A stretch of DNA of 64,000 nt from Lysobacter sp. A03 (GTDB taxonomy: Bacteria > Pseudomonadota > Gammaproteobacteria > Xanthomonadales > Xanthomonadaceae): contig NZ_JXSS01000048.1 of the NCBI RefSeq assembly GCF_000855665.1, positions 124,001 through 188,000 on the forward strand, given 5' to 3'. Every line of letters begins with the position of its first letter. Position 1 is the first letter of the stretch. Of the stretch, positions 1 to 21,132 are shown one piece after another. A program made the translations under genes and the position numbers. Under the pieces are notes generated by a model. The model saw only the letters and a list, made by a program, of their open reading frames with translations, was not told the origin of the DNA and did not search any database.

Positions 1-3000
1 GGTGAAGTAAATCCATTATTACATCGTATTAACAATTCTATCGATGATAGTGATGTGCAAGAGCGGGTGCGGGACTACGACGTGGTGAGGGCGTCTCGGT
101 TGTTCGACGGCCAGTACTATCTTCAACAGTATCCCGATGTCGCAAAAGCTGCATTGGATCCGCTTGCGCATTATATTGAATGTGGGGCCAATGAAGGAAG
201 AAGAGCTTCTGCCTGGTTCGATACGGCGTACTACCAAAAGGCCTATCCGGATGTCCTAGCGTCCGCTATAAATCCGCTCCGGCATTTTTGCGAATTCGGA
301 TGGGGGGAGCTTCGCAACCCGAGTTCCGCTTTTGATACGGCGTGGTACTGGACCACCCATATGGCACGGAGCGGAGATCGAGGAAACCCGCTCGTTCATT
401 TTGTCGAGACTGGGCTTGCCACGGGCTTGAAGCCGCGTGCTGTGGGTAAATTGAGTCCGCAGGATAAGCAGGAAATGATTTCGATAGCTCAGCAACTGGT
501 AGCCGCAGGTGAGCTGGATATCGAAACGTATCAACTTGCCGGACAGGTGCTGGCCAAGTTGAAATCCTGGCCGGCTGCGGAAACCGCGTTTCGTGAAATT
601 GTCGGATTACAGTGGGATTTTGCCTCCAATCACAGCCGGCTTGGCCATGCACTAGCGCAACAAGGAAAGTGGTGGCAGGTTGTCGAATCGCTATTGGTGG
701 CAACAACACAAGACCCCTCGCGCGCCGACTGGTTTCATAAGTTGGGTGAAGCTCAGGAGAAGATGCACAGGTTTGGCTCTGCGGCCGATGCGTATCAGCG
801 CGCGGCTGATATAGAGCCCGCCAATAGAGAATCGTGGTATCGACTTGGGTACGCGTACGAGAAATCGGGGAGACAGTCGCTTGCCGACAATGCCTATGAA
901 AAGGCGATTAGGCTGAATAGAGACCTCGATGCCGGCAAGTTCGGGGTTGGCGTATTACATCAGGAGCGCGGTTACTGGAAGGATGCTGCGGAGGCGTATC
1001 AGAAGCTGGCAAAGGCGAGACCTTCGGACTCGGGTCTCCGATTTCGCCAGGGAATGGCGCATGATCGATGCTACGAATGGGATAAGGCAATTGGCTGCTA
1101 TGAGAAGGCAATCGCGCTTAGCCCTCGCATCCCGTACTGGCATTACCGCCTCGGCTTCGTTCTCGAGCGAATTGGTAGGATCGAGGCCGCAGCTGATGCA
1201 TATGGGCACGCGATCGAACTAAGCCCCAAGCTCATGTCCTACTGGTGCTATCGACAGGGATATGTCCTCGACATGGCCGGTCAGTATGCCCAAGCGTGTA
1301 AAGCCTATTTCGCGAGTACTCAGGATAGCCAGGAGCCATCTACTGTGTCGCCAGTCTATGAGCAGGGGGACGCATCGGGAGTCAATGCTAGATCGCTAGC
1401 GCCTCGTAGCGAGTACTTCTCGAGGTTTACCCAAGCACTCGAGGAAATCCTAGACGCGGATGGGACATGCGCAGAGACGCACTACGCGCTCGGCGCGCAA
1501 CACGAGCAGGCCGGAAGCTGGGAACTCGCGGCCACGTCCTATGGGAATGCCACGGCGAGGAGCGACAAACATAGACCCAACTGGTATTACAGGCTCGGGA
1601 CAGCGCTCTATCAGGCGGGTAGGGTGAAGGAGGCATGCGCTGCTTTTCGCGAAACACGAGTTTTAAAGCAGCCGTACGGTGTAGACATCTCGGCTTTTCA
1701 GAAGCACGCCGAACAATCGACACTAGCGGCATATCTCGAGTACACTCGGACCTTGCCGATCCAGCGACGTACAATAGTCTACGAGAGCTTCAATGGTGCC
1801 TCCATGGGGAGCAATCCCTACGCAATCTTTATGGAGCTTATCGATCGTCCTGATTTCTCCGGCTGGACCCATGTCTGGGCGCTCAAGGATAAGAACTCGG
1901 TTCCGGCGCACATAAGAGCCCGGCAGAATGTCGTGCTGGTCAGTCGACAGAGCGATCTCTATCGACGCTATTTGGCAACTGCCCAATATCTAATCAACGA
2001 TGTAACGTTCCCGTACTGGTTTGTGCGAAGACCAGAGCAAAGGTATCTTAATACCTGGCACGGTACACCGTTGAAGTGTCTCGGAAAACATATGCCGGGG
2101 GAGTTTCTATCGCACTCAAATATTGCGCGGAACCTGTTGCAGGCGACGCATCTGATCAGCCCAAATAGGCATACCACCAATGTCCTTCTCGAAGGGTACG
2201 ACATCTCCGGAATTTGTAATGCCAAGCTCGCGGAAACGGGCTACCCACGCATTGATCGTATGTTGCAGATGGACGCCGGCTCAAAGGAGCGGCTGAAGCA
2301 GCGTCTTGGCCTGGATGATGGCAGACCAGTCGTCCTCTATGCGCCGACGTGGCGTGGATTGCATGGGGCCCCAGGATTCGACGTTGAGCGTCTGGTAGGA
2401 GATCTGAGTGCGATGGCTCAGCTCCCGTGCCAGCTGGTGTTTCGTGGCCATCAACTGGTCGAGAGCGCAGTTTCAAAGACTGATCTTCCAGCGATTCTCG
2501 CTCCTCAGAATATAGACACAGGTGAGCTGCTTGCGGTTACCGATGTTTTGGTCACGGATTATTCGAGTATTCTCTTTGACTTCCTTCCTGCCGAACGTCC
2601 CATCATCTGTTATGCATATGATGCGGAAGAATACCAGAAAGAACGGGGGCTATATTTCGAGCTTGATGAATTGCCTGGAACCGTTTGCTGTACGACGGAG
2701 AGCCTCGTCGAAGCGCTGGCCCACGAGATCCGTAAGCCAGACGGAAAGAGCGAGCGCTACAAAGCCGCACGAGAGAAGTTTTCTCCTCATGAGGATGGTG
2801 AAGCAACTAACCGCACCATTGAATTCTTCTTCCAAGATAGTACCTCATCTGTTGTCTCGACAGTTGCAGACACTCGATCTTCGATACTGTTCTACGAAGG
2901 GCAATTCATACCGAACGGAATTACTTCGTCTTTCCTCAACTTGATGAAGGAACTATCAATTTCGAATTGTTATCGGGTAGCAATCGCTGCTGATCCGGGA

Positions 3001-4065
3001 TTGATCGCAGCGGACGAGCGACGAAAGGAGAAGTTCTCCCAGTTGCCGGACAACGTTCAGGTTATCGGACGGGTTGGCAGGATGATATTGGATCCCGAGG
3101 AAAGCTGGCTGGTTCGGCGCTTTGGTGCGCTGCATGACGTCGAAGTACCAGAGATGAAAGCTATTCTTGCTGGCGCATATCAGCGAGAATACCTCCGGAT
3201 ATTCTCCGATGCGAAATTTGATGCATTGGTCAACTTCGAAGGGTACAGCTCATTCTGGATGCAAACTTTGGCATTTGCCCCAGCGGGTCCCAGGCGAGTG
3301 AGCTATCTTCATAATGATATGCGTAGCGAGCAGGCGGTCAGGCTCCCATACCTGTCCACGATATTTCCGATTTATCGGAACTACGATGCGTTGGTTTCCG
3401 TGTCGGAGGATATGTCGCGGACGAACTGTGAGAGCTTGTCCGAAAGCGTCGGAATTCCGGCTAATAAGTTTGTTGCGTGCATAAACTCCATTGATGTGGA
3501 ATCTATTCGGAGCCTGGCACTTCAGGAGCCCCCAGAGGAGCTGGAGCGCTGGTTTACCGGGAAGACATTTGTGACGATTGGCCGCATGTCTCCGGAGAAG
3601 GATCATTCAAAGCTGATCGACGCATTTGCCGGAATTCATCGCGAATTCCCCGATGCGCGGCTTTTGATCATAGGTGATGGACCGCTTCGAAACGAGCTTG
3701 AAGTCCAAATAGCATCCATGGGCATGAAGGACGTGGTGTTGTTAGCTGGACAACACAGCAATCCATTTCCAATTCTGAGACGTAGCGACTGCTTCGTGCT
3801 TTCGTCGAATCATGAGGGGCAACCCATGGTTCTGTTGGAAGCAATGGTTCTCGGCAAGCCAATTGTCGCCACGGATATTAGCGGAAACCGTGGTGTTTTG
3901 AAGGATGGACACGGAGTTCTAGTGGATAACAGTAGTGAAGGATTGAGGGAAGGTATGCTCCTATTCATGTGCAATCCCGCCAAAGTGAAGCCCTTCGACG
4001 CAGCGGGGTATCAGGCTGATGCTAGGCGGATGTTCTCGGAAGTTGTTCTGGGTGTGAAGCAATGA
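1..4065 (+). CDS. Multidomain surface-glycan protein: repeats, TPRs, TagF-like glycerophosphotransferase domain, GT4 domain (5' partial)
   Basis: The frame is open from base 1, so the gene probably begins outside the window; the first in-window start-like codon (GTG at 55) has no convincing ribosome site. Domains in order: three copies of a 38-residue FDxxYY..YPDV repeat (nt 103-430); a TPR solenoid (about nt 480-1690); a CDP-glycerol:poly(glycerophosphate) glycerophosphotransferase-like domain (about nt 1765-2830) with the family landmarks HGTPLK, YAPTWR and VTDYSSILFD; and a GT4 GT-B domain (about nt 2875-4060) with IGRMSPEKDH and EGQPMVLLEAM. TagB/TagF enzymes move glycerol phosphate from CDP-glycerol to an acceptor, releasing CMP. 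Here no CDP-glycerol gene is seen, but a CMP-phosphonate pathway lies downstream, so transfer of a phosphonate is a reasonable inference. Probably cytoplasmic; no signal peptide or membrane segment is visible. Base composition is clearly richer in A+T than the housekeeping genes to the right. Domain calls are firm; the substrate is unknown. Confidence 0.85.
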   Translation, partial: GEVNPLLHRINNSIDDSDVQERVRDYDVVRASRLFDGQYYLQQYPDVAKAALDPLAHYIECGANEGRRASAWFDTAYYQKAYPDVLASAINPLRHFCEFGWGELRNPSSAFDTAWYWTTHMARSGDRGNPLVHFVETGLATGLKPRAVGKLSPQDKQEMISIAQQLVAAGELDIETYQLAGQVLAKLKSWPAAETAFREIVGLQWDFASNHSRLGHALAQQGKWWQVVESLLVATTQDPSRADWFHKLGEAQEKMHRFGSAADAYQRAADIEPANRESWYRLGYAYEKSGRQSLADNAYEKAIRLNRDLDAGKFGVGVLHQERGYWKDAAEAYQKLAKARPSDSGLRFRQGMAHDRCYEWDKAIGCYEKAIALSPRIPYWHYRLGFVLERIGRIEAAADAYGHAIELSPKLMSYWCYRQGYVLDMAGQYAQACKAYFASTQDSQEPSTVSPVYEQGDASGVNARSLAPRSEYFSRFTQALEEILDADGTCAETHYALGAQHEQAGSWELAATSYGNATARSDKHRPNWYYRLGTALYQAGRVKEACAAFRETRVLKQPYGVDISAFQKHAEQSTLAAYLEYTRTLPIQRRTIVYESFNGASMGSNPYAIFMELIDRPDFSGWTHVWALKDKNSVPAHIRARQNVVLVSRQSDLYRRYLATAQYLINDVTFPYWFVRRPEQRYLNTWHGTPLKCLGKHMPGEFLSHSNIARNLLQATHLISPNRHTTNVLLEGYDISGICNAKLAETGYPRIDRMLQMDAGSKERLKQRLGLDDGRPVVLYAPTWRGLHGAPGFDVERLVGDLSAMAQLPCQLVFRGHQLVESAVSKTDLPAILAPQNIDTGELLAVTDVLVTDYSSILFDFLPAERPIICYAYDAEEYQKERGLYFELDELPGTVCCTTESLVEALAHEIRKPDGKSERYKAAREKFSPHEDGEATNRTIEFFFQDSTSSVVSTVADTRSSILFYEGQFIPNGITSSFLNLMKELSISNCYRVAIAADPGLIAADERRKEKFSQLPDNVQVIGRVGRMILDPEESWLVRRFGALHDVEVPEMKAILAGAYQREYLRIFSDAKFDALVNFEGYSSFWMQTLAFAPAGPRRVSYLHNDMRSEQAVRLPYLSTIFPIYRNYDALVSVSEDMSRTNCESLSESVGIPANKFVACINSIDVESIRSLALQEPPEELERWFTGKTFVTIGRMSPEKDHSKLIDAFAGIHREFPDARLLIIGDGPLRNELEVQIASMGMKDVVLLAGQHSNPFPILRRSDCFVLSSNHEGQPMVLLEAMVLGKPIVATDISGNRGVLKDGHGVLVDNSSEGLREGMLLFMCNPAKVKPFDAAGYQADARRMFSEVVLGVKQ

Positions 4066-4311: not shown

Positions 4312-6966
4312 ATGTCTAGTAAAACCGTGCTGAATATTAAGACAAAGAATATGACTTGTGGTGAGGTGGATTCATTCCTCAGCACGGTGCCGGATGTTCG
4401 TTTCGTACATATTGATCACGAGGATCTCGTTCCTACAGGAAAGAACCTGATTGAGTTGGCGCGTAGGCACGAGCTTGCGAAGAAACTCGTCGTTTCGCTA
4501 GCTAATCGCGGGTTTATGGCCTATATCTTGCGCGGAACAGTGACGTCATTTGTGCATTACAAGCGCCTCGGGACGATATGGAAAATGGTCACGGAGGGAC
4601 CCTTAGAGGTCGATGAGAACGGCTTGATCTACGGCTTAGAACCGCCTTTGTCCGGCCACCCAGTGAAGCATTTGCTTGTGGTGTTCTCTTCCATGGCGGG
4701 AAAAATATATACCGCCAGCATGAAGAGGCATTTCGAGCAAAATTTCGCATCTGTCCAGAAGTACATTCCTGCAGGCACCGCAGTACTGCGAATTGCCGAT
4801 TTGGGCGGTGTCGTTGGCGGATGGTATATGGACACGTATGGGATTCCAGACAACGAAGCGCACGTTCAGGCTTTGATTGAGCGTGTGGTTTCCAAAGCGG
4901 GAGTAAAAAGCGAGGACGTAGTGTTCTACGGGGTATCTAAGGGCGGTAGCGCCGCGCTTTACCATGGGCTACAAGGTAAGTATCGTGTTGTCGCGGTTGA
5001 TCCAATCCTAGCGGATGATTATTACGTCAACACTTTTCGTGATTCTCATTTCACCGTGGGTGTTTTTCCGAAGGACAAACTGGACAAGTTCAAGGCGCTC
5101 TCGGTAGCGATTGACCCTAAGGGTATTGCGCCGACAGCGATCATTTGCTCAGAGCGATCGCCCCAGTTTCCCTATATAACCAGCGTGCTTGGAAATGAGT
5201 TGAATGACCGCATCGCGTTTTTCAACAGCCAGCACCCGGATATTAAGGTGCATCCGGATGTCAGCCCTAAAACGCTGAATGTTGCCGTAATGGCAATGAA
5301 TATGCTGTTTTACGGTGTGCCCATGCCAACTGGAATTTGCATCGTTGACAATCTCGATGGAGATGGTCGTCGGGCGCACGATATAATTGCGCGGGCGGAA
5401 GCGGCTGGACGGGAGTCCCCTCCCAAAAGCGAGGGGGAAATTAACGCCTGGCGGGTTAAGTTATCTGGTCTACAGGACGAGCTGAAGCCGCTGCTGACAT
5501 CGGCATCCCGCTGCGTTAAAGCTATATGGTGCTCTGCAGTTCTTGCAGAAAAACGAAAGAAGTTTCCTGAGGCGCTGAAGTACTGGGAAGATCTTCTTGC
5601 CTCGATTGATGACGAGGAATTGCCTGCGCTTAATATGGTGAGCAGTGCTTATCGTGTGGATGCGGTTGTCGGGATTGCCCGCCTTTTACGCTTACGAGGT
5701 GATGTTCAGGAAGCAAAAAGGATGATATTCACTGTTGCGGATGATGATCAGGGTGTGATTTCATCTGTAGCAATTGAGCGCAGGCGGATTCTGGATGTCG
5801 AATCGCGTTTGGTGTCGATGGCGCGAGCCAAGAGCATTCGTGATTACGTCAAGACTGGTCGAACGGTAGCTGAGGTTGCGCCCCTTGTCACTGAATGCTT
5901 GCGTGAGGCGGGGGAGCCTTCGCTGTATCAGCATGACGACATAGAAGCCTTGATCCTCAGAGCTTACGAGGCGGCGCTGTCGTTGCCGAAAGCCCAGGCC
6001 ATCGATGGCTTGAGTGCGGATCCGTATGTGAATTATAGAAAGTGCCGAGTAAAAGCTGCCAGCGATGGTGTGGAGAAATTGGTATTCGTATCAGGATTCG
6101 GATGGTCTGGATCAGGAGCCGTAGTTGATCTTCTGCGTGGATACGAGGGTAGTTATTTGGGGGGCTGTGGGCGAGAGTTGGCTTTTTTTGGAGGGACTAG
6201 AGGTTTCCCTTCGCTAACCAGTCTATTTGATGGTATACGGGGAACTGTCGATGCACGCACTTTCATGGAGTTCTTCCTAGGGCCTGCGGTCTTGGGGCTG
6301 TACTTGCCGGAAACTAGAAGTAGTAGTTGGCGTTACAACAGCTTGGTCAGGGCAAACGGGGATGCAAAGAATAGTCGATTTGCGCTGGTTAACGCATGTA
6401 GCGATTTGATCAAAATTGTGAGTGAAGTTCAGGGAGAGAACCCACAGTATGTGAATAACCAGGTGATGGCTGCGTTGGCGTCGTTTGCAGGTAATGCCAT
6501 GCGCGCGCTAGGTCCGAATGGTAGCAGATCCATTATATTCAGCAATGCCATACATTGTTACGATATACGAAACATCGTATTGTTTCCCGATGCGCGCAGT
6601 ATCGTGGTAAGGCGTGATCCGCGCGACCAGTTTGTTGCTCGTTATTACGAGGCGCCGGGGCACGGTGCGTATTCCGCAGATGCGTTTATTCGGCTAAACC
6701 GGCAGCGCCATTATGATTACGCACTTGCGGTAGATGGACTGGGTCTCCGTGACCGGATAATGGAGGTCGACTTCGAGGCGTTCGTTCTGGATGAAGCTAC
6801 ACGCGAGCGTGTCGTTATCGAAGCTTTGGGAAATGATCCCTGTATCGTTAAATCCACTTTCAATCCCGCGCAATCTAAAAAAAATATTGGAATTCATAAA
6901 AGCTTCCCGGACCAATCTGCCATCCGCAAGGTAGAGGAAGCTTTTCCTGAGTACTGCATGAATTAA
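4312..6966 (+). CDS. XcbB/CpsF-like alpha/beta-hydrolase protein with a C-terminal sulfotransferase-like domain
   Basis: 884 residues, no signal peptide. The N-terminal half (about residues 120-340) has an alpha/beta-hydrolase look with a nucleophile-elbow motif GVSKGG at residues 207-212, resembling proteins annotated as XcbB/CpsF capsular polysaccharide biosynthesis proteins, whose exact chemistry is unsettled. A helical middle (about 370-560) resembles a TPR-like spacer. The C-terminus begins with [10 protein letters not shown] at about residue 592, like the PAPS 5'-phosphosulfate loop of sulfotransferases. It later has [10 protein letters not shown] at about 764, like their 3'-phosphate motif. 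A sulfotransferase fold is therefore likely but sulfation is not proven. An AAGG ribosome-site candidate precedes ATG 4312. The gene is low in G+C like its upstream neighbour and ends 20 nt before the PEP mutase gene, suggesting co-transcription. A role in capsule or O-antigen assembly is inferred from context. Confidence 0.7.
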
Positions 6967-6986
6967 TCATCAGAATGGTGTTTACT

Positions 6987-8288
6987 ATGAGTAGTGTTTA
7001 TATCGGCATGAGCGCCGACCTGATTCACCCCGGTCACCTCAACATCATCCGGAAGGGTGCCGAACTTGGTGAGGTCACAGTGGGCCTGCTGACCGATACG
7101 GCCATCGCAAGCTACAAGCGAGTGCCGTACATGAGCTACGAGCAGCGCCGCGAGGTCGTTACGGCCATAAAAGGCGTGGCAAATGTCGTGCCGCAGACTA
7201 CGCTGGATTACGTGCCCAACCTTCGCGAGCTCAAGCCGGACTATGTGGTTCACGGCGACGATTGGCGTGAGGGCGTGCAACAGAAAACCCGGCAGATGGT
7301 TATCGACGCATTGAAGGAGTGGGGCGGTGAACTGGTCGAAGTTGCCTACACGCCAGGCATTTCCTCCACCGCGTTGAACGCTGCACTGCGCGAGGTGGGT
7401 ACTACGCCAGAAATCCGCCTGAAATCGCTGCGTCGCATGTTGCAGGCCAAGCCGATCGTGCGGCTGCTGGATATCCACAACGGTCTTTCAGGGCTGATCA
7501 TCGAGAATATCCGTATTCAGACCGAAGACGGAAAGGCGAGAGAGTTCGACGGCATGTGGGGAAGCAGCCTCACCGACTCCACGGCGAAGGGCAAGCCGGA
7601 TATCGAGGCGGTTGACGTATCGGCCCGCATGACCACGCTGAATGAGGTACTGGAAGTCACTACCAAGCCCATCGTTTATGACGGCGATACGGGCGGCAAG
7701 ATGGAGCACTTCACCTTCACCGTGCGTACGCTCGAAAGGCTGGGTGTTTCGGCTGTGATCATCGAGGACAAGACTGGCCTGAAGAAGAATTCTCTGCTCG
7801 GCAATGACGTGTCGCAGACCCAGGATTCGATCGAGAACTTCTCCCTCAAGATCAAGGAGGGCAAGCGCGCGCAGGCAACCGACGACTTCATGATCATTGC
7901 CAGGATCGAGAGCCTGATCCTTGGGAAGGGCATCGACGATGCGATGGAACGGGCAAAGGCCTATCTGGCAGCCGGTGCGGACGGCATCATGATCCATAGT
8001 CGTGAGAAGTCGCCGGACGAGGTTCTGGAGTTCTGCACGCGTTACCGTGCGCTCGAGGACAGGAAGACGCTCGTGGCCGTGCCTACCAGCTACAACTCGA
8101 TCACCGAGGAAGAACTGGCCGCCGCGGGCGTAAACATCGTCATCTACGCGAACCATCTCTTGCGGGCCGCCTATCCCGCAATGGTGAAGACGGCGACATC
8201 CATCTTGACCCACCAGCGTTCGGCCGAGGCCGATTCGGACCTCCTTCCCATCAAGGATGTGTTGAAGCTCATCCCCGGAACTACCTGA
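6987..8288 (+). CDS. Bifunctional cytidylyltransferase / phosphoenolpyruvate phosphomutase (Fom1-like)
   Basis: 433 residues from ATG 6987; an in-frame ATG at 6975 would add four residues, but [11 protein letters not shown] fits how the cytidylyltransferase fold begins. Residues 1-135 form a nucleotidyltransferase domain of the TagD type with the CTP-binding HxGH motif at 14-17 (HPGH). Residues from about 150 are PEP mutase, with the hallmark [10 protein letters not shown] at 260-269. PEP mutase makes phosphonopyruvate, the entry step of almost all phosphonate biosynthesis. The same domain order occurs in Fom1 of fosfomycin-producing Streptomyces, where the N-terminal domain cytidylylates 2-hydroxyethylphosphonate. 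The decarboxylase starts one base after the stop codon and the reductase follows, so the trio is a tight operon. PEP mutase function is near certain; the nucleotidylation substrate is inferred. Confidence 0.93.
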
Positions 8289-8289
8289 C

Positions 8290-9420
8290 ATGATCGAATC
8301 TAAGGCATTACTGGACGCACTCCAGCTACGGGGCATTGGCCTCTACACCGGCGTCCCGGACTCTCTGCTGAGCAGTTTTTGCGCTTACGTGGATGACCAT
8401 GCAGAAGCGGGGCGGCACATTATCGCCGCCAACGAAGGCAATGCGGTCGCGATCGCTTGCGGCCATCATATGGCGACGGGCCAGACCAGCCTCGTTTATC
8501 TGCAGAATTCGGGCCTTGGCAACATGATCAATCCGCTCACATCGCTGGCCGACGCGGAGGTCTATCGTATCCCGATGCTTCTGGTGATCGGCTGGCGAGG
8601 CGAGCCCGGCGTCCACGACGAGCCTCAGCACGTGAAGCAGGGAAGGATCACGAAGGGGCAGCTCGATCTCCTCGAGATTCCTTATGTCGAGCTGGACGCA
8701 TCGTCCGACGTCGAGCAGGTGGTGCAGACTGCATTCGATGCCATCTCCCGCGAGGGTTCGCCCGCCGCAATCCTGGTGCACAAGGGCGCATTCGTGCCGT
8801 ACAAGACCCGGCGAAAGCTGGATGCCCTGTCATCCATGGCGCGCGAAGAGGCGCTCGGGCACCTGTTTGACGTGATGGGGGCGGACGATTTGGTGGTATC
8901 TACTACGGGCAAGACCTCGCGCGAAGTCTTCGAACTGCGCTCGGCGCGTTCGGAGCCGCAGGGGGACTTCCTGACCGTCGGCGGCATGGGTCATACCGCC
9001 TCCATTGCACTTGGGGTGGCCAAGGGAGCGCCTAGCCGTCGTGTTGTCTGCATTGACGGTGACGGATCGGCGTTGATGCACATGGGGGCGATGGCCATCA
9101 TCGGCCAGGAGAAGCCGGTAAACTTGGTCCACGTTCTACTCAACAACGGCGCGCATGAGTCGGTTGGCGGCCAACCAACGGTCGGCGGCCGGATCGATTT
9201 TGGCGGTATCGCCAAGGCGTGTGGCTATGAGGCTTACCATCTTGCCGCAAGTCCCGAGGATATCGCTCGCGAGTGGGCTGGCATGGCCGATGTACAAGGA
9301 CCTGTCTTGCTGGAGGTTCGCATCACGATCGGTTCGCGGAGCGACCTAGGGCGTCCGACCAGCACCCCGGAGCAGAACAAGCAGTCCTTCATGGCCAAAG
9401 CATCACGAGTCGAGGAGTAA
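8290..9420 (+). CDS. Phosphonopyruvate decarboxylase (ThDP-dependent, Fom2/AepY-like)
   Basis: 376 residues. A ThDP-dependent decarboxylase with the pyrimidine-domain activating glutamate at residue 49 (AANEGNA) and the pyrophosphate-binding motif GDGS at 257-260, closed by NN about 26 residues later (LLNNGAH). It converts phosphonopyruvate to phosphonoacetaldehyde plus CO2. That irreversible step pulls the unfavourable PEP mutase equilibrium forward, which is why the two genes are usually neighbours. Sulfopyruvate decarboxylases are the closest alternative, but the preceding PEP mutase decides the call. Translation is probably coupled to the mutase gene, because only one base separates stop and start. 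The length is normal for a single-chain family member. Cytoplasmic. Confidence 0.93.
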   Translation: MIESKALLDALQLRGIGLYTGVPDSLLSSFCAYVDDHAEAGRHIIAANEGNAVAIACGHHMATGQTSLVYLQNSGLGNMINPLTSLADAEVYRIPMLLVIGWRGEPGVHDEPQHVKQGRITKGQLDLLEIPYVELDASSDVEQVVQTAFDAISREGSPAAILVHKGAFVPYKTRRKLDALSSMAREEALGHLFDVMGADDLVVSTTGKTSREVFELRSARSEPQGDFLTVGGMGHTASIALGVAKGAPSRRVVCIDGDGSALMHMGAMAIIGQEKPVNLVHVLLNNGAHESVGGQPTVGGRIDFGGIAKACGYEAYHLAASPEDIAREWAGMADVQGPVLLEVRITIGSRSDLGRPTSTPEQNKQSFMAKASRVEE

Positions 9421-9425
9421 GTTAG

Positions 9426-10517
9426 GTGTCATGGCACCACTTTAATCCGGTTCAGATCGAGTTCGGGGTTGGCAGCTTTGCTCGGCTCGCGGAGCTCGAT
9501 GCGCTGGCTACCGGTCAGGTTTTGCTGGTCACGACCGAAGGGTTCGTACGTCGCGGGCAGGCCGGCGAGATCGTTCGTGTCCTCGGTGCCGACCGGGTGG
9601 CGGTGTATGACGGGGTAACTCCAAATCCGGAAATCGACGATCTGGATGCTGCGGTTCGCGAGTGGCGCCCACACATGCCTGCCACGATTCTCGCCTTGGG
9701 GGGAGGCAGCGCAATCGATGCAGCGAAGGCACTGGCAGTTGCGCTGCCGAATGGGGTGGTTGATCCGCTGGATACGCTGCTGCGTCGTGGGCAGGTCTTC
9801 AAACGTAACGCCACGTTACCCGTCGTTGCGATTCCCACCACTTCGGGCACGGGTTCCGAAGTCACTCCGTTCGCAACAGTCTGGGATGGGCGTGAACACC
9901 GCAAGCACTCCATTGCAGGTAGCGACGTCTACCCGCGGGTCGCTGTGGTCGATCCGGAATTGACCCTGTCGCTGCCGCCGCAGGAAACGCTCTATACGGC
10001 GCTGGATGCAATTTCCCATGCACTTGAGTCCCTTTGGAATCGCAACCGGACGCCCCTGTCGGAGTCGTTCGCGACGCGTGCTCTGTCCGGGGCCGTGGTT
10101 GCACTGCCTGCAGTCCTTGCGCGTCCACAGGATCTTGAAGCCCGCGTGAGCATGCAGCAGGCAAGCCTACTTGCCGGTATGGCCATCAGCCAGACCAGGA
10201 CCGCCATCGCGCACTCGATTTCGTACGCACTGACCAGCCACTTTGGCGTACCGCACGGATTAGCCTGCAGTTTTACACTGCCGAATATCATTGCGAAGTA
10301 TCTCGACGAACGCAATGAGGATCCGGTGCTTGCATCGTTGATGCGCGATGTCCGCCTGATGCTCGTTGGGCTGGAGCTGGATTCGCGCCTGCAGCAGTAT
10401 GCGAGCCTGGCGCAGATCGAAAGCCTTAAGGGCGAAATGGTTCAGCCAGGTCGCGCCGACAATTATGTCGGCCGGATCGACAATCTGGAAGATTTCATCA
10501 GGCCTCAGGGCGGCTAA
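9426..10517 (+). CDS. Iron-containing alcohol dehydrogenase, probable phosphonoacetaldehyde reductase (FomC/PhpC-like)
   Basis: 363 residues from GTG 9426, preceded by a good GAGGAG ribosome site inside the end of the decarboxylase gene. A group III (iron-type) alcohol dehydrogenase: LGGGSAIDAAKA in the nucleotide-binding half, then metal-site segments DAISHALES and FGVPHGLA. Next to a mutase and decarboxylase, this family reduces phosphonoacetaldehyde to 2-hydroxyethylphosphonate, as in fosfomycin and phosphinothricin producers. No aminotransferase for 2-aminoethylphosphonate is present in the window, so HEP rather than AEP is the likely product. It is the last plus-strand gene of the phosphonate set; a 29-nt gap separates it from the convergent acetyltransferase gene. 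The family call is firm; the substrate is inferred from neighbours. Confidence 0.87.
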   Translation: MSWHHFNPVQIEFGVGSFARLAELDALATGQVLLVTTEGFVRRGQAGEIVRVLGADRVAVYDGVTPNPEIDDLDAAVREWRPHMPATILALGGGSAIDAAKALAVALPNGVVDPLDTLLRRGQVFKRNATLPVVAIPTTSGTGSEVTPFATVWDGREHRKHSIAGSDVYPRVAVVDPELTLSLPPQETLYTALDAISHALESLWNRNRTPLSESFATRALSGAVVALPAVLARPQDLEARVSMQQASLLAGMAISQTRTAIAHSISYALTSHFGVPHGLACSFTLPNIIAKYLDERNEDPVLASLMRDVRLMLVGLELDSRLQQYASLAQIESLKGEMVQPGRADNYVGRIDNLEDFIRPQGG

Positions 10518-10546: not shown

Positions 10547-11245
10547 TTACGGAGCGAATCGCTTGTAACTTCGTTCGCGTGGCTGCAGGCCATTGTCGAT
10601 TCGGAGCTGAAGCGCGTCCACGGCCGCTTCCACGTCGTGGAAGGGCAGGCCATCGAGGTCCACGGCGTCGTAATTCCACCACTGCACGCGCAACAGGCGA
10701 CCTACCAGTTCGTCGTCGAAGCGCATGCGGATAAGTTTGGCAGACACCCCTCCCACAATTGCATAGGGTGGAACGTCCTTGGTCACGATGGCGCCGGCGG
10801 CACATATGGCCCCGTCCCCGATCGTGACCCCGCAGCGGATGACGACATTCGCCCCGATCCAGACGTCGTTGCCTATGACAACTGGTGTCTGGGCGGGGAG
10901 GAGGGATTTCGCAACGTCGGAAAGCGGTTCGGAATACGCGGATTCGGGAAGTTGGAACTGTCTCTTGCGCCAAGCTGCACTGTGGGGAAGCGGCGAAGTG
11001 GTCAACCAGTCCGTCGGGTGGTCGGTTTCCCCGATGATGACGTTCGGACCGATGGACGAATATCTTCCAATGGATTTCAATCGGCGCACGACGCCCGTCC
11101 TGAAGTAGGAATAAGCGCCGAACTGAAATCCGCAGCGGACTTTCAGGTCGCCCGTAACCACAATAGGATCTTCGTATTGGATAACGACACGCTGAGCAAT
11201 AGATGCAGTTTTTGATATTCTCGGCACGTTGGGCTCCCGGTTCAA
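10547..11245 (-). CDS. Left-handed beta-helix O-acetyltransferase (CatB/Vat-like)
   Basis: 232 residues. A hexapeptide-repeat acyltransferase of the xenobiotic-acetyltransferase branch: repeats such as [20 protein letters not shown] and [20 protein letters not shown], and a catalytic-type histidine in [13 protein letters not shown]. The C-terminal helix [20 protein letters not shown] is typical of CatB-like proteins. In polysaccharide loci such proteins acetylate a sugar or its nucleotide-linked precursor, so glycan O-acetylation is the likely role. The frame begins with TTG and lacks an obvious ribosome site; no ATG exists near the N-terminus, so the start is uncertain by a few codons. It runs opposite to all its neighbours and is divergent from galE. 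The family call is strong; the substrate is unknown. Confidence 0.85.
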
Positions 11246-11326
11246 GATATTGCGGGTAGATTTTTATGTTACTGAGAGAGTTGTGCCCTCCCTTCCCCGA
11301 AGTGGTTGACCCAAGGAGATATTTGA

Positions 11327-12313
11327 TTGGCCATCATGGTAGTCGGGGGAGCCGGTTACATCGGTTCCCACATGGTAAAGATGCTGTTGTCTGAAGGGTA
11401 TGAAGTGGTGATTGTGGATGACCTGAGCGGCGGTCACCGTGAGAGCATTGGTGAGGCACGGTTGCTGGTCGGGGACATCGGTGATTCGACATTCATCGAG
11501 CATGCGATCGGCATGGAGAAGCCCGATGCGATCATGCATTTCGCGAGCTTCATCCAGGTGGGTGAATCGGTCGCCGATCCTGCCAAGTACTACCACAACA
11601 ATGTCACCGCAACCCAGGTGTTGTTAGACGGCATGCGCCGCCACGGCGTGGACAAATTCATCTTCTCCTCCACGGCGGCCATTTTCGGCGAGCCGGAGTA
11701 CGTGCCGATCGATGAGATACATCCGAAGTCTCCGATCAATCCATATGGACGCAGCAAGTGGATGGTCGAGCAGATGCTGGAGGACTTTGATTCTGCTTAC
11801 GGATTGAAGTCTATTGCATTGCGATACTTCAACGCGGCCGGAGCGGACCCTGAAGGCTTGATCGGAGAGTGCCACGAGCCGGAGACTCACCTGATTCCAC
11901 TGATCCTGCAAGTCGCTTCGGGTCGTCGGCCCTGCATCACGGTATATGGTAACGACTACGACACGCCGGATGGCACCTGCATCCGCGACTACATCCACGT
12001 CGCGGACCTGTGCAGCGCGCATCTGCTGGCGCTCAGGCAATTGTTTTCCGGCGCGGGAAGCGCGCGCTACAACCTCGGTAATGGGAGTGGCTTCTCGGTA
12101 AGCAAGGTGATCGACGCGGCGCGCCGCGTGACTGGGCACGCCATCCCTGTCCAGGTGGCTGAACGCCGGGCGGGCGATCCGCCAAGTCTGGTTGCCGATG
12201 CGTCGCATGCGCGGGACCGGCTGGACTGGAGTCCGCGCTACGCCGATTTGGACACGATCATCCGGCACGCGTGGCAGTGGGAGTGCAGGCGGGTGGGGCT
12301 GGTCTTAGACTGA
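11327..12313 (+). CDS. galE: UDP-glucose 4-epimerase
   Basis: 328 residues. A short-chain dehydrogenase of the GalE type: NAD-binding GGAGYIGSH at the N-terminus, TAAIFGEPE in the active-site strand and the catalytic YxxxK as YGRSK in NPYGRSKWMVEQM. It interconverts UDP-glucose and UDP-galactose (or the N-acetyl forms) to supply precursors for the surface glycan. The start is TTG at 11327: AAGGAG at 11313-11318 lies 8 nt upstream, whereas the next ATG (11336) would be 17 nt away, and the TTG start gives the normal N-terminus. Standalone plus-strand gene between the divergent acetyltransferase gene and a lipoprotein gene. Confidence 0.95.
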   Translation: MAIMVVGGAGYIGSHMVKMLLSEGYEVVIVDDLSGGHRESIGEARLLVGDIGDSTFIEHAIGMEKPDAIMHFASFIQVGESVADPAKYYHNNVTATQVLLDGMRRHGVDKFIFSSTAAIFGEPEYVPIDEIHPKSPINPYGRSKWMVEQMLEDFDSAYGLKSIALRYFNAAGADPEGLIGECHEPETHLIPLILQVASGRRPCITVYGNDYDTPDGTCIRDYIHVADLCSAHLLALRQLFSGAGSARYNLGNGSGFSVSKVIDAARRVTGHAIPVQVAERRAGDPPSLVADASHARDRLDWSPRYADLDTIIRHAWQWECRRVGLVLD

Positions 12314-12435
12314 CCCCTGCCTTCTGCTGCTTCTCCCCAAAGTCTTGATTCTGGCCGAGATGGCATTCAGCTTCCTCAGTACAGCCGTTCTGTAGAATGA
12401 TTGATCCTATCCCTCACGCCGCCGTGGACCTCTTT

Positions 12436-12942
12436 ATGAAGACCCGATTGACTGCAATTCTCGTTGTTTGCGTAATAGCCGGTTGCGGCCAGACCACTGC
12501 ACCACAAGCTGTTTCGCAGGAAACCTATCAACAGGTACCGGCTGACCAATCCTGCACGCAGACCAACTTCTATTCCCCATTGCCCGGTGACCTACAAGTG
12601 CAATTCCCGTTCCATTTGCGTAGTGACCGCATCTTCACGACGAAGAAAGGCAACGTGCGTCGGCGGGTGACGCTGGAAACGTTGAACGACAATGCGCCGG
12701 AAGCTTTCGTTAGCGCCAGCCAGTCGCTCGTTGCCGCAGGCTACAAGGTTAAGGGGAAGGCCAAGGGTGAGGTGGAGAAGAAATACGCGCAGACCTTCGT
12801 TCGCAAGGGCCAGCCATCAATCACACTGGTATCCAACATGGACGTAGGCTCGAAGCCTGCCAACCCGGCTGCGACGGGTCTGGTTTATTTCGAATGGGGA
12901 TTGCCGGGCGCAAAGGCCAGCGTGCCTGTCGTCGCCCGCTGA
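12436..12942 (+). CDS. Small lipoprotein of unknown function
   Basis: 168 residues from ATG 12436. A longer frame from 12397 is possible, but the internal ATG is chosen because MKTRLTAILVVCVIAGC is a clean lipoprotein signal peptide with lipobox I14-A15-G16-C17. The residue after the cysteine is Gln, so outer-membrane sorting would be expected. The mature part contains a run of basic residues (TKKGNVRRRVTLE) and KVKGKAKGEVEKK, and no domain is recognised. A TAGAAT -10-like hexamer at 12393-12398 lies 37 nt upstream. It sits inside the polysaccharide region without a specific partner. Its gene status rests on the signal peptide and the full open frame. Confidence 0.72.
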   Translation: MKTRLTAILVVCVIAGCGQTTAPQAVSQETYQQVPADQSCTQTNFYSPLPGDLQVQFPFHLRSDRIFTTKKGNVRRRVTLETLNDNAPEAFVSASQSLVAAGYKVKGKAKGEVEKKYAQTFVRKGQPSITLVSNMDVGSKPANPAATGLVYFEWGLPGAKASVPVVAR

Positions 12943-13571
12943 GTCCCGCCCGCACCGGACCGTTTGTCAAACAGGTTCATGCGGTGACACAAAGACGCTA
13001 GCTGGTATCGCCGGGAGGGTCAGCTTTCCGACGATTTCAAGGAAGAATAGTCGGATATATGCGTTCAATTCGAGTGATAGTGCGCCCGGGAGACGCCAAG
13101 AAAAGCGTCGCCGTGTCGCGGGCGGAGTTCGTCCTTGTCGCGGGCGCCGAAGTTCAATGCATCGGCGGGAACGCCACTTGCCAAGGCGTGCAGTGCCGCA
13201 TTGCTATCTGACTCGTTGTGTTCTGGGGTCAGCAACGATCCCGAACGGTTGCATGACGACTGACGCGCGGAAATAGGCGGCTCCTTATCGGCGCGCCTCA
13301 AGGTGACGAGCCGAACGGTCACGAAGCGGAAGTCGCGGGTTCATAACCTTGTTGGCACCCGGCCATGCGCCGACTCGATACCTGATGCTGCTGTGCCTGA
13401 TCGTGTCCTCTCCAGTTGGCAATCACCGGCCCTCTGGCTTCCCATGCCGACGATGCCCGGCGTAAGCCGGACAGCTCCCTGACAGCAGCCAGCGGCTAAG
13501 CTATCGGATGTTTGGTTGCCGTTCTGCGTCCTGTTGCGCGCCGCTAGGCTACGAAGAGCCGGAGATTTTTG
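12943..13571. other. Gene-poor gap of about 630 nt, possibly holding a degenerate HTH gene remnant
   Basis: No convincing gene. A minus-strand frame (13065-13322, 85 codons) encodes near its end DKDELRPRHGDAFLGVSRAH, which looks like the ELTxxQAAxxLxVSRPxx helix-turn-helix of excisionase-like antitoxins. It stops directly after that helix and has no partner or ribosome site. It could be a decayed fragment or chance. A short perfect inverted repeat GTTTG-T-CAAAC lies at 12962-12972. A gap of this size is unusual in an otherwise compact window and suggests past rearrangement. Confidence 0.3.
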
Positions 13572-15945: not shown

Positions 15946-18435
15946 TCACCTTCCCGCCTTGTGTGATCTGGTGTCGACCAGCGCCATCAGCACCAAGGCG
16001 GCAATAACAGTTGCCAACCAGGGTAACAACCAGCGCAGGAGGGCGGGGCGGTACTCAAAGCGGATAGTCGCGGGTGAGGAAACCGCCACAGCGGGCATGA
16101 CTCCATCCTTGAGCACGGGTGCGACCTGCTTTCCATCGACGCTGACGTGCCAGTCGTCGCTCATGCTCATCGGAACGATGACGTAGCCTTGGGCGTCGTC
16201 GTTGTAGCGCAACGTGAAATCGTCGGGGAGGTAATCCAGGATCTCGATCGGTTGGCCGGATTGCCTGTCGGGGTGATCCTCAATGCGGCTGATGTAATAG
16301 GGGCCGCCCGGGCTGTTGACATTCTCCAGGACCGCGGTGCCTTCAGCGGTGAAGACGCGTTGGAATGCGCCGTCGTCAGTACCACTCGCCAGCACGCGGT
16401 ACTCGATGGTTCCGGCGTGCTCTGTTTTGTCTACAGCAAGACGGCGCTGCTTATCTGCAACGGCCCAAGCAGTCAGCCGCTCGCCCACGTTGTCGCCGTT
16501 GGAGTAGGCCAAGACGAATGCGTAATCGCCTGGCTCCAGGGTTACCGGACTGTTGAACAGGAAATCCGCGTATTGGTTGTCAACGACCAGGGATGCGGGC
16601 AGTCGCGCATCCGCAAGGCGGCTCCCCTGCTCATCGCGCAGTGTGAGCAGAACCTGGCCAGAAAGTCCTGCTTGACGGTAGGTCGCCAAACGCACGGAAA
16701 CTCCTGCCAGCGAGGTGGCGCTTGCCATTTCAAATCCCTGCACATAGGAGTGGGCAGGCATTGCCGGTAGCGGGCGTCGTTCGCCCTCGTAGCTTGTGTC
16801 GATCGGAACAGGGCTGTTGGGACCGTGACGCGAATCGATCAGGGCATAGCGGACGTTGTAGTCTGCCATGTCCAATGATTCGTACTGGATATCCGAGGCT
16901 GGGAACCGCGAAGCCGACGCGCGGTGCGAATTGAACGGACGCTTTGCCATTCGATGCAGAGCGTCCTGGAGCGCGGGTGTGCGGAAGTAATGTGCGAGCC
17001 ACTCACGCTGACCGTAAACACCCAGCGTTCCCGACATGAGGAAGGATCGGTCGGTGATCACGTAATCGAATGGGCCTGTCCGATCGCGGACGTAGTCAAT
17101 CGTGGCCGTTTGTGGGAAGTAATAATCGGAATCCACGGGGCCGTTTAGGCCACGGAAGTACATCGATACTTCGACCATCTGGACCAGGCCTATCAGTACG
17201 AGCGCGCCGTGAAAGATGAAGTGCCGTTCACGCGCGGCTCTCCAAAGCCAATCAAGGCCCAGCGCCCCCAGGATGATCAGGCCTATGTCCAACAAGCCGA
17301 TCGCGCGCGACCAGGAGTTGAACGCCATCCCGGGCAGCCAACCGATCAACCACATGGGCCAGAGCTCAAACACGAGAGCGGCCGTGATCGCCACCAATAG
17401 GACCGCGAACACCGACAGCGCGCCCAGTCGCCGCCATCTGGCCAGTATTGCCACCACGCCGACTGCGGCCCATGCCATCATGCTCGCGCCCACATACATG
17501 CTCTGCTCGACGCGCCGGACCTGATATGCCCACGGTGGGAGCAGCTGTTTCCAATGGCCCAGGTCAAGATAGCTGCCCCGCCCCTGGCGATAGCCCAGGT
17601 CGAACTGCTGCAGCCAGTAGACCAGTCCGAGCAGTGGTAGAGCGGCGAGCAGAAGGCCAACAAGGGCGCCCGCGAGGCACCATCCCGCAAATGGCCAGGG
17701 TGCTGACTCTTTCCGGCGCCAAAACGAAACAAGCAGGAGCAGCGCGTACAGTGCGGCCATCTCCATCACCAGCACGCTGAGGAACGGAAAGCCACCAAGC
17801 CAGACCAGCGCCGAGGTGGCGGCGAGCAGCAAGCTGCTGCGCATTCCCGGCCTGCCTGCGCAGCGATCAATTGCCCAGAAGACCCACGGCGCCCACATCA
17901 AGGTGAACATGTGCGGCCAGTACAGCCATGCTGTATTGAAGCCGCAGAACTGGAATGTGACGGCAGCGACGATTGCCGCCAGCCACCCCACGTGTCTTCG
18001 CAGGAACAGATGCATGCCCAAGCCGGCCAGGGCCAGATTGAACAGTGTGGCCAGATAGAACCCCCGCGCTGGGTCAGGCGTCGCGGTGAAGATGACGAAG
18101 GCAGGGGTGAACAGGTTCGTGTTTAGACTCAGGAACGTGCCGCCGCCTGCGACTTTGTCGTTCCACAGCGGCACTTGTCCCTCGCGGATTTGCTGCTTGG
18201 CAACCTCCCATTGAGGAAGCAAGGCGTTGAGGATGTCGGAGCGTTCGTAACTGCGTACCTCTACCCCTGGATCCACGAACTGCCACGCCCTTTGGCTGAC
18301 CAGCACGTCGAAGGGCGTGACGGTCTGTCCCTTGAAGGGATTTGCACCCAGGGTGGCTGCGGCTACTGCGGCGTAAAGAAGCAGGAACAGCAGACCGGAG
18401 GAAAGCGGTCGCAACCAGCTGGGCACCCCGGTCAC
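15946..18435 (-). CDS. YfhO-like multi-pass membrane glycosyltransferase candidate
   Basis: 829 residues from GTG 18435. The N-terminal half has about 12 hydrophobic helices; the short extracytoplasmic loop after the first helix contains acidic positions, and a QVPLWND segment is typical of YfhO and GT-C proteins. The C-terminal 400 residues are a soluble beta-rich domain closed by a final helix near the end. In Bacillus and Listeria, YfhO works with the GT2 enzyme CsbB, which makes an undecaprenyl-phosphate-linked sugar; YfhO then transfers that sugar outside the membrane. Here the upstream gene is exactly such a GT2, and the two overlap by GTGA (18432-18435), so they probably function together. 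The acceptor in this Gram-negative host is unknown. Last gene of a five-gene operon. Confidence 0.8.
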   Translation of the reverse strand: MTGVPSWLRPLSSGLLFLLLYAAVAAATLGANPFKGQTVTPFDVLVSQRAWQFVDPGVEVRSYERSDILNALLPQWEVAKQQIREGQVPLWNDKVAGGGTFLSLNTNLFTPAFVIFTATPDPARGFYLATLFNLALAGLGMHLFLRRHVGWLAAIVAAVTFQFCGFNTAWLYWPHMFTLMWAPWVFWAIDRCAGRPGMRSSLLLAATSALVWLGGFPFLSVLVMEMAALYALLLLVSFWRRKESAPWPFAGWCLAGALVGLLLAALPLLGLVYWLQQFDLGYRQGRGSYLDLGHWKQLLPPWAYQVRRVEQSMYVGASMMAWAAVGVVAILARWRRLGALSVFAVLLVAITAALVFELWPMWLIGWLPGMAFNSWSRAIGLLDIGLIILGALGLDWLWRAARERHFIFHGALVLIGLVQMVEVSMYFRGLNGPVDSDYYFPQTATIDYVRDRTGPFDYVITDRSFLMSGTLGVYGQREWLAHYFRTPALQDALHRMAKRPFNSHRASASRFPASDIQYESLDMADYNVRYALIDSRHGPNSPVPIDTSYEGERRPLPAMPAHSYVQGFEMASATSLAGVSVRLATYRQAGLSGQVLLTLRDEQGSRLADARLPASLVVDNQYADFLFNSPVTLEPGDYAFVLAYSNGDNVGERLTAWAVADKQRRLAVDKTEHAGTIEYRVLASGTDDGAFQRVFTAEGTAVLENVNSPGGPYYISRIEDHPDRQSGQPIEILDYLPDDFTLRYNDDAQGYVIVPMSMSDDWHVSVDGKQVAPVLKDGVMPAVAVSSPATIRFEYRPALLRWLLPWLATVIAALVLMALVDTRSHKAGR

Positions 18436-19376
18436 TCCACGGGCAGGTTGGATCGACGCAGCTGCAGGCTGATCCGCTCCAGTAGTTTGCGATTCGTCGC
18501 TATCAAGTCACCGATCAAGCCCATCATGTAGAGGAGGACGCCCAGGGTGATGCACAACGACGCGAGGATGACGGACTGGACGTGGCCGTCGCCCGTGCCA
18601 TGCAAATAGTGAAAGAGGAACCTCAGGCCGGCAATCAGACCCACGATCATGAATACCGAACCTGTGTAAACAAACAGCGCCAAAGGCCGGTAGATAACGA
18701 ACACCCGTACGATCGTAAGCAGTGAACGCTTGACGTAGCTGGGAATACTCTTGACCAGACGTGAGGGGCGCAGGTCGGGATTGGTTCGCACGGGAACGGA
18801 TAGAATCCGCAAGTTGCTCTGACCAGCCTGGATGATGGTTTCCAGTGTGTAGGTATAGACGTTGAAGACATTCAACCGCAGGGCAGTCTCCCGCGATATT
18901 GCACGAAATCCGCTGGGGGCATCTTCCACCTGGGTCTTGCTCGCCACCCGAACAGCCCAACTGCCCAGGCGCTGCAGTTTCTTCTTCACCCAGGAAAAAT
19001 GCTCGGTTTCGCTGATCGGGCGCGCGCCGATCACCATGTCGGCTTCGCCTGCAAGAACCGGGCCGGTCAGTTTCGGTATGTCGGCGCCTTCGTACTGATT
19101 GTCCGCGTCGGTATTGACGATTACATCCGCCCCCAAGCGCAGGCACGCACTCAGTCCGGTCATGAAGGCAGCTGCCAGACCACGATTCACCGGGTGCCTG
19201 ATTACGTGGTCGACTCCAAGCTCCTTGGCCACCGTGCTGGTGTTGTCGGTTGAACCGTCATCGATGATCAGCCACTCGACGGTGTCAAACCCCGGCACCT
19301 CACGAGGCAACGCATCCAAAGCGATCGCCAATGTGCCGACCTCATTCAGGCACGGGATCTGAATTATGAGTTTCAT
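18432..19376 (-). CDS. Polyprenyl-phosphate glycosyltransferase, GtrB/CsbB/DPM1-type GT2 with two membrane helices
   Basis: 314 residues from ATG 19376; the frame extends further upstream but that part is a shadow of the preceding gene. The GT-A domain starts IIQIPCLNE, with DDGS at 39-42 and the metal motif NTDADNQ at 88-94. Two C-terminal transmembrane helices lie at about 231-257 and 266-293. This layout belongs to enzymes that attach a sugar to undecaprenyl phosphate at the inner membrane (GtrB, CsbB, ArnC, DPM1). The start overlaps the flippase-like gene stop as ATGA, and its own stop overlaps the YfhO-like gene start, so translational coupling is likely. The sugar is unknown. High confidence in family and topology. 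Confidence 0.9.
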   Translation of the reverse strand: MKLIIQIPCLNEVGTLAIALDALPREVPGFDTVEWLIIDDGSTDNTSTVAKELGVDHVIRHPVNRGLAAAFMTGLSACLRLGADVIVNTDADNQYEGADIPKLTGPVLAGEADMVIGARPISETEHFSWVKKKLQRLGSWAVRVASKTQVEDAPSGFRAISRETALRLNVFNVYTYTLETIIQAGQSNLRILSVPVRTNPDLRPSRLVKSIPSYVKRSLLTIVRVFVIYRPLALFVYTGSVFMIVGLIAGLRFLFHYLHGTGDGHVQSVILASLCITLGVLLYMMGLIGDLIATNRKLLERISLQLRRSNLPVE

Positions 19377-20329: not shown

Positions 20330-21132
20330 GGACGCTTCCTGGCGCGGAGCAGAAACCCGTTACCCAGCGGCAACCGCCGGAACGCACTTTGCACAGCGAA
20401 GGCCGATCGCAACGCGAGCTTGCCCGGAGCGGAGCTGATCAGCGGATACCACCCAAGTACATGGCCGCGCTCAATGCCACTGCGATCATTATTGGTTTTA
20501 CGGAGTCCCTGGTCACCCGATCGCTTGACCTCGCGAGCAATCCCGTGGGCCTGTATCCGCTCTGTGAGGTTGCCCAAAGGAAAGCCGAAGCACTCAATGT
20601 ATTCCAGGTCCAATCCTGTCGATTTCACCAGGTCTACCAGATCAGTCTTGCGATATCGTCGATAATGTCCGGCCCAGACATCCGCTGCGTTCCATTGGCG
20701 TGGATGCGCAGGCACAGAAATAAGCAAGGCGCCGCCCGGTACAAGCCAGCTCGCCCATTCCTGCATCGCCGCAGCATCGTCCTCGATATGCTCAAGGACC
20801 TCGAACGCCATGACGAGTGGAAACCGATCCGCCCAGTCTTGGCCTGGCTCGGCGTGGACCTGTATCGCCTGTCCGGATGCCAGCGCCAATGTAGTTATCA
20901 GATCGCGTGCCTGCGCGGATGTCTCCAACGCATGGCATAAGTGCCCGCGCTCCGCGAGCTCCTGCAAGAGCATTCCGGCGCCGGATCCGATTTCGATCAC
21001 CTCCCCCGAGCCCATGCCTTGCAGCTGCCGCAGGATGCGATTGCGACGGAGGAGATAACGAGGTGCAGGTACCCAACCCAATTGTGGCGCTGATGGACCA
21101 AGCAGCGGATCGTCAATCAAGGGATTGGTCAT
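20326..21132 (-). CDS. Class I SAM-dependent methyltransferase
   Basis: 268 residues from ATG 21132, chosen because it forms an ATGA overlap with the upstream GT4 gene; a longer frame runs into that gene. The Rossmann motif I is E47-IGSGAG, followed by the acidic cap in HALETSAQ and motif post-II MAFEVLEHIED, typical of UbiE/Methyltransf_11-type enzymes. HYRRYRK in the C-terminal half is common in small-molecule and glycan methyltransferases of surface loci. The probable role is O-methylation of a sugar or lipid-linked intermediate; the target is unknown. Second gene of the five-gene minus-strand operon. Confidence 0.88.
   Translation of the reverse strand: MTNPLIDDPLLGPSAPQLGWVPAPRYLLRRNRILRQLQGMGSGEVIEIGSGAGMLLQELAERGHLCHALETSAQARDLITTLALASGQAIQVHAEPGQDWADRFPLVMAFEVLEHIEDDAAAMQEWASWLVPGGALLISVPAHPRQWNAADVWAGHYRRYRKTDLVDLVKSTGLDLEYIECFGFPLGNLTERIQAHGIAREVKRSGDQGLRKTNNDRSGIERGHVLGWYPLISSAPGKLALRSAFAVQSAFRRLPLGNGFLLRARKRP

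Follow-up and report, generated by a model that had tools for sequence, protein, structure and literature searches.

The closest described relative of the protein considered here is Fom1 of Streptomyces wedmorensis, in which a cytidylyltransferase (CyTase) is likewise followed by a phosphoenolpyruvate (PEP) mutase. The structure of its first domain (PDB 5x3d; Cho 2017, as given in the available part of PMC6697681 and in the PDB title) is entitled 'HEP-CMP-bound form of cytidylyltransferase (CyTase) domain of Fom1', HEP being 2-hydroxyethylphosphonate. According to the accessible sections of Rice et al. 2019 (PMC6697681), PF01467 fusions, the same fusion class as the protein encoded in the window, make up 23.6 % of 1485 Ppm proteins, and the bulk of bacterial phosphonate capacity serves cell surfaces; the enzymes assayed in those sections, with AEP, are PntC proteins of family PF12804 and not members of the PF01467 class. 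Two kinds of surface loci are also relevant. Loci for a surface phosphonoglycan have been described in Glycomyces and Stackebrandtia (Yu 2014, as cited in the accessible text of PMC7858074), and the variable LPS locus that in Xanthomonas and Stenotrophomonas lies between metB and etfA is the subject of Patil et al. 2007 (PMC2238763, available in part).

The window, that is, the whole stretch of 64 000 nucleotides of Lysobacter sp. A03 that was analysed, contains on its forward strand a fused CyTase-PEP mutase gene of Fom1 architecture at 6987-8288. From the ATG at 6987 to the stop codon ending at 8288 it forms a single open frame of 433 aa with no internal stop or frameshift; an alternative in-frame ATG upstream, at 6975, would give 437 aa. 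The antisense ORFs that overlie the gene (6963-7478 and 7488-8336) are taken as mechanical by-products. Pfam analysis identified PF01467 (E 6.2e-15) N-terminally and PF13714 (E 4.7e-55) C-terminally in the same frame, the arrangement of a Fom1-type CyTase-PepM fusion, and these were the sole Pfam domains at E values up to 0.01. The CyTase half occupies residues 1-140 (6987-7406) and carries, as read in the translation and the fusion alignment, an HPGH motif at residues 14-17 (7026-7037), of which H14, G16 and H17 are identical in all 95 aligned fusions, the window's own counted. The fusion scored 410.6 bits against the NCBIfam PEP mutase model TIGR02320 (cut-off 319.55), and its PEP mutase half (residues 151-433; 7437-8285) contains at residues 260-269 (7764-7793) the mutase motif EDKXXXXXNS, given as such in the available part of Rice et al. 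2019 (PMC6697681).

With the whole fusion as the query, the top PDB match was 5x3d (E 1e-59), confined to the first half and 67 % identical to it; 1coz was matched at E 4.5e-7, so that the CyTase half resembles the Fom1 domain more closely than it does TagD. An AlphaFold2 model with 35 aligned fusions as input had a mean pLDDT of 87.3. In Foldseek comparisons its first half aligned with 5x3d over 124 columns (rmsd 1.3, 68 % identity), and the PEP mutases 5unc and 1pym ranked first for the remainder. All of the positions that are invariant among the fusions are present in the window protein. By sequence and modelled fold, the N-terminal half is a Fom1-type CyTase, and the statement of the original prediction that both halves are intact is borne out.

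The fusion gene is followed on the same strand by genes for a phosphonopyruvate decarboxylase (Ppd; 8290-9420; TIGR03297 459.4 bits, cut-off 312.5) and an Fe-dependent alcohol dehydrogenase (Fe-ADH; 9426-10517). The latter is a probable phosphonoacetaldehyde reductase yielding HEP, although its score with the PsrA model TIGR03405 (361.4 bits) lies below the cut-off of 423.7, which counts against the explanation favoured here. On the reverse strand, at 10547-11245, lies a gene for a phn_thr-like hexapeptide acyltransferase (TIGR03308 117.2 bits, below the cut-off of 201.65), which has a 60 % identical relative behind the cassette of Xanthomonas chitinilytica. HEP arises from phosphonopyruvate via phosphonoacetaldehyde, and this pathway, together with the presence of Ppd and Fe-ADH behind the fusion, makes HEP the expected product of the cassette. 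The same route is depicted in a figure legend of PMC8931226, a source available in part.

It is predicted, then, that the C-terminal half of the fusion converts PEP to phosphonopyruvate, which Ppd would turn into phosphonoacetaldehyde for reduction to HEP by the Fe-ADH; the N-terminal half would join HEP and CTP to form CMP-HEP. CMP-HEP would serve as the donor that puts HEP on an O-antigen-like glycan exported through a Wzm/Wzt-like transporter, the candidate users being two TagF-like domains and a sulfotransferase-like domain. HEP esters have been recorded on marine polysaccharides (PMC9381506, accessible in part). We infer both HEP as the substrate of the CyTase and a glycan as the end product, and it is very probable that the fusion is a bifunctional phosphonate enzyme making CMP-HEP for a surface glycan.

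The enzyme families, the cassette and the LPS-type locus that surrounds it are shown by sequence and fold comparisons. Ahead of the fusion gene, on the forward strand, are genes for a protein with TPR, TagF-like (Glyphos_transf) and GT4 glycosyltransferase parts (55-4065, possibly starting upstream of the window; Pfam and NCBIfam), whose TagF-like domain lies at 1744-2829 (PF04464, E 1.4e-77), and for a protein that joins a capsule-type XcbB/CpsF domain with a P-loop sulfotransferase-like one (4312-6966; NF033892 273.7 bits, cut-off 125; PF13469 31.2 bits, cut-off 27). The sulfotransferase-like domain of the latter occupies 6082-6963 (PF13469, 32.9 bits). Beyond the cassette are the UDP-glucose 4-epimerase gene galE (11327-12313, forward strand; TIGR01179 438.6 bits) and, at the far border of the locus, etfA/etfB (22313-24072, reverse strand). 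Upstream of the window, the contig (region L005) carries, in order, genes for cystathionine beta-synthase (CBS), MetB, a Wzm-like and a Wzt-like protein, a methyltransferase and an RgpF-TagF protein, and a TagD gene. CBS, metB and etfAB were named from their translations only, and the Wzm- and Wzt-like proteins fall under the cut-offs of the NCBIfam models (149.2 of 380 and 176 of 400, respectively).

The cassette is thus situated between metB and etfA, with wzm/wzt first from metB. The borders and the Wzm/Wzt order are the same as in the xanthomonad loci in the accessible part of Patil et al. 2007 (PMC2238763), from which the present locus differs in holding the HEP cassette and teichoic-like genes. 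In Stenotrophomonas mori (L021), too, the cassette comes after relatives of CBS, MetB, Wzm and Wzt. In X. chitinilytica (L013) the order is LicD (a weak match; 24.1 bits, cut-off 22.6), TagD, TagF, sulfotransferase-like domain, fusion, Ppd, Fe-ADH and hexapeptide protein, and its fusion is 86 % identical to that of the window. Between the TagD gene and the fusion the G+C content is 49-58 %; elsewhere in the locus it is 57-63 %, and past 22 kb it amounts to 62-68 %. With a G+C content lower than that of the sequence beyond it, the LPS-type locus was probably acquired horizontally.

The TagD gene upstream of the window (L005:19190-19612) scored 173.7 bits against TIGR01518 (cut-off 165.4) and matched the solved glycerol-3-phosphate cytidylyltransferase 2b7l at 5.7e-50; on these matches it is a true glycerol-3-phosphate cytidylyltransferase. 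The fused half reached 45.7 bits with the same model, and in a tree of the CyTase half the five TagD-type rows and the fusions fall on opposite sides of a split with support of 100/100. It is thus extremely improbable that the fused half is a TagD-like supplier of CDP-glycerol for the TagF domains, merely joined to a PEP mutase, even though it shares the PF01467 superfamily with TagD and TagF-like domains are present in the locus. Its identification as TagD was rejected on the low score and the existence of the separate gene; activity on glycerol-3-phosphate only, which the original prediction had put forward as its counter-case, is disfavoured by the same comparison. Activation of AEP, as performed by PntC, was also considered, AEP being called the typical cell-surface phosphonate in the available sections of Rice et al. 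2019 (PMC6697681). An alcohol dehydrogenase, however, occupies the place of the transaminase in the cassette, PntC belongs to the different family PF12804, and the best match to the PhnW-AepZ transaminase model in the genome was 34.8 bits (cut-off 360.8), with none above the cut-off. HEP is favoured over AEP because of this last result, on which the AEP route was rejected, and AEP as the substrate is regarded as very improbable.

A decayed fusion with one half inactive might be suggested by its patchy presence (the full fusion in two of the 100 relatives searched, this genome included) and by a G+C content lower than that beyond the locus, but it is a highly improbable explanation given the intact frame, the presence of the fusion-invariant positions and the good modelling of both halves. 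The preferred reading, CMP-HEP for a surface glycan, also has to be weighed against a free small phosphonate, secreted as a metabolite, as the end product. Fom1 itself acts in a small-molecule pathway, and HEP is also a methylphosphonate precursor in the accessible part of PMC8931226. The window gene, unlike that of Fom1, lies among the Wzm/Wzt-like and glycosyltransferase genes of an LPS-type locus and not in an antibiotic cluster, and the 18 locus proteins scanned with Pfam contain no aminotransferase domain and, as regards Fom4, no cupin domain. A genome-wide search for the B12-binding domain PF02310 gave two matches, both on other contigs, in ORFs of 935 and 1248 aa; Fom3, which we take to carry this domain, is presumably shorter than either. 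This search revealed no Fom3 candidate in the genome, so that CMP-HEP would hardly go to fosfomycin, in agreement with the original prediction, which had seen no Fom3 gene nearby. Taken together, these observations make a free phosphonate very improbable.

A profile scan of genome contigs with the CyTase alignment gave at least 592 stretches, at least 568 of which were confirmed; 80 were kept as loci, being the most query-like and biased to Bacteroidales and metagenome bins. Among the matches listed, the CyTase-PepM fusion is present in 80 of the 80 kept loci, the record titles of which span many phyla. This result and the proportion of Ppm proteins quoted above from Rice et al. 2019 show that the fusion was already known as a class, contrary to the rarity outside fosfomycin clusters implied by the original prediction; the window gene is an ordinary member of a known, widespread fusion class in an informative place. 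The strict order fusion-Ppd-Fe-ADH, judged by distance, was found in 62 of the 70 kept loci having at least 3 kb downstream. Of the exceptions, L053 and L092 apparently have the same order, the ORF start having been set too early; Ppd and Fe-ADH are swapped in L054 and L081; L074 has Ppd only, Ppd is distant in L080, and L060 has neither. In L087 a single ORF of 778 aa (11221-13557) matches both Ppd and Fe-ADH and is a possible further fusion. The locus L073, titled Candidatus Woesearchaeota archaeon, contains the fusion, Ppd and Fe-ADH, and a binning error is possible.

Among the genomes of 100 relatives, the full fusion was found in two, the genome itself and G050 (73 %), and two more matches are restricted to the PepM half. 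Within the genus, the nine other genomes searched yielded no fusion at E 1e-20. At E 1e-100 the fusion is present in six of 369 genomes of the class, its own included; two matches in another class genome (G593) both cover only residues 1-335. One class genome, G543, has two equal-scoring fusion genes approximately 27 kb apart (C3:47859-49148 and 74786-76075), on a contig that also has LicD and TagF matches. Of the 396 genomes searched in the phylum of the Glycomyces record, 14 have the fusion. Coverage of the fusion protein is 80 % or more in one of 99 matching plasmid records and in two of four matching phage records. Two contigs from human faeces, recorded as unverified 'Bacteriophage sp.' (L145 and L146; MT836947.1 and MT837901.1), carry a fusion of 54-56 % identity and a Ppd match, and may be bacterial fragments. 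A plasmid of Segatella copri DSM 18205 (NZ_CP085933.1) has the fusion, Ppd and reductase in the order seen in the window, the annotation reading aepX, aepY, phosphonoacetaldehyde reductase, CDP-glycerol glycerophosphotransferase and O-antigen polymerase. It differs in having a TagF-like gene directly behind the cassette and a fusion protein of 669 aa with a further N-terminal nucleotidyltransferase-like part (L129:5281-7290), perhaps like the triple fusions in the available text of Rice et al. 2019 (PMC6697681).

Phylogenetic trees were constructed from the CyTase half, in which only the 134 residues of 5x3d stand for Fom1. The full tree comprised 95 aligned fusions and the five TagD-type rows. 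A thinned, TagD-rooted tree was made without L121-L123, two TagD-type rows and 31 fusions, and a tree rooted on three stand-alone Bacteroidota enzymes without L121-L123, 38 fusions and the whole set of five TagD-type rows. In the full (99/88), thinned (100/87) and Bacteroidota-rooted (98/85) trees alike, the partner of Fom1 is Glycomyces paridis, and the two CyTases are 84 % identical. It is apparent that Fom1 sits among actinomycete fusions, in a group supported at 99/84 in the full tree and at only 88/77 in the Bacteroidota-rooted tree; in a first tree, without Glycomyces and with fewer fusions, Fom1 had paired with L069 instead. A topology in which Fom1 splits first was not rejected by the AU test (p 0.395, thinned; p 0.571, Bacteroidota-rooted), probably owing to the remoteness of the outgroups; with the Bacteroidota root, the likelihood was even higher for the topology that puts Fom1 outside. 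The pairing with Glycomyces fits the ancestral glycan-activating use of the domain pair raised in the original prediction, but as these trees also allow Fom1 to have split first, an older glycan use before recruitment to fosfomycin is a plausible reading of the sequences compared. Of the phylogenetic comparisons then proposed, that with TagD-type enzymes was run and gave the clear split described above, whereas that with PntC makes little sense, because PntC is placed in PF12804, not PF01467, and so does not belong in a CyTase tree.

Glycomyces paridis (L092) carries the cassette, and it is through this species, not strain NRRL B-16210, that the present locus, which is of the proteobacterial LPS type, resembles the phosphonoglycan loci of Yu 2014 as far as the accessible text of PMC7858074 describes them. 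The fusion, Ppd and Fe-ADH occur together in nine of 13 regions from the Glycomyces phylum; L112 and L116 end too early, and L122 and L123 have Ppd but no Fe-ADH match. In these last two (L122:8059-9354, reverse strand; L123:8910-10205, forward strand) HEGH replaces HPGH and the CyTase half is strongly diverged, with Ppd nearby, perhaps reflecting another substrate. A search of plasmids with the 5x3d stretch gave seven records, none from Streptomyces.

The genes flanking the cassettes were surveyed for transferases that might use CMP-HEP, in fetched flanks of up to 10 kb and in the 55 of the 80 kept loci that extend 5 kb or more to each side. LicD-like proteins alone were found in 28 loci, TagF-like proteins alone in 14, both in two and neither in 11, so that one or the other is present in 44 of the 55. 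Their avoidance of each other gave a Fisher p of 7e-5 for loci that are non-independent, many being from Bacteroidales. The LicD profile was built from the seeds under 520 aa among a set of 40 LicD seeds, and the TagF profile from 19 seeds (of which, by subtraction, 18 match PF04464) and the two TagF domains of the locus itself. Pfam backs 37 of 42 first-round LicD matches and 19 of 28 first-round TagF matches, and six of the latter 28 matched Epimerase_2, a drift to WecB. Two weak matches were counted, PF04464 in a Stealth protein of L021 (23.0 bits, cut-off 22.1) and LicD in L045 (20.9 bits, cut-off 22.6), as were, from the profile without Pfam support, the matches in L081 and those in L092 except 17696-20425. 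As background, LicD occurs in four and TagF in 17 of 143 genomes of the class, a background not matched to the loci in phylum. LicD and TagF are both present in two of the 14 control genomes, those of Bacteroides ihuae and Lactococcus lactis; because B. ihuae is one of them, the signal may be partly phylum background.

No LicD match was found in the window's own genome, which makes TagF the simple guess for the CMP-HEP transferase. In G018, a genome of the same family, no fusion was found at E 1e-20, but it encodes a TagD of 61 % identity, a protein related to TPR-TagF-GT4 (39 % across 1315 of 1336 aa) and a further TagF domain. TagF as the certain transferase is weakened by this retention of TagD and TagF without a fusion, since the TagF domains of the locus may serve glycerol phosphate only, and the identity of the CMP-HEP transferase is uncertain. 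A domain like that at 6082-6963 is present in seven of the 80 kept loci and in one of the 13 fetched Glycomyces-phylum regions (L117), and is rare in the class (three of 369 genomes at E 1e-15, its own included). Another genome, G783, has the domain three times, near a stand-alone CyTase and LicD, without a fusion. In L020, L052, L053 and L079 it was found with no LicD or TagF, in flanks that are short except in L053. Copies of the domain, with a similar motif, lie near HEP cassettes at L013:8374-9981, L020:3-1394, L052:375-1352 and L079:8501-9460, in some cases as immediate neighbours. Two parallel cytidylyl systems, one with TagD/TagF and glycerol phosphate, the other with the fused CyTase and HEP, in which the sulfotransferase-like domain at 6082-6963 and neither LicD nor TagF would use CMP-HEP, are an unlikely arrangement, and this domain is a lead only as the CMP-HEP transferase. 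The titles and abstract openings of the open-licence literature searched contained nothing on TagF as a CMP-HEP transferase or on HEP in xanthomonad LPS.

The results presented here assign a predicted cassette for HEP activation to the variable LPS locus of a relative of the xanthomonads, and they offer candidates for the step after CMP-phosphonate formation, the alternation of LicD or TagF near the cassettes amounting to a short list for the CMP-HEP transferase. With the grouping of Fom1 and Glycomyces, it becomes testable whether an antibiotic enzyme was recruited from the chemistry of the cell surface.
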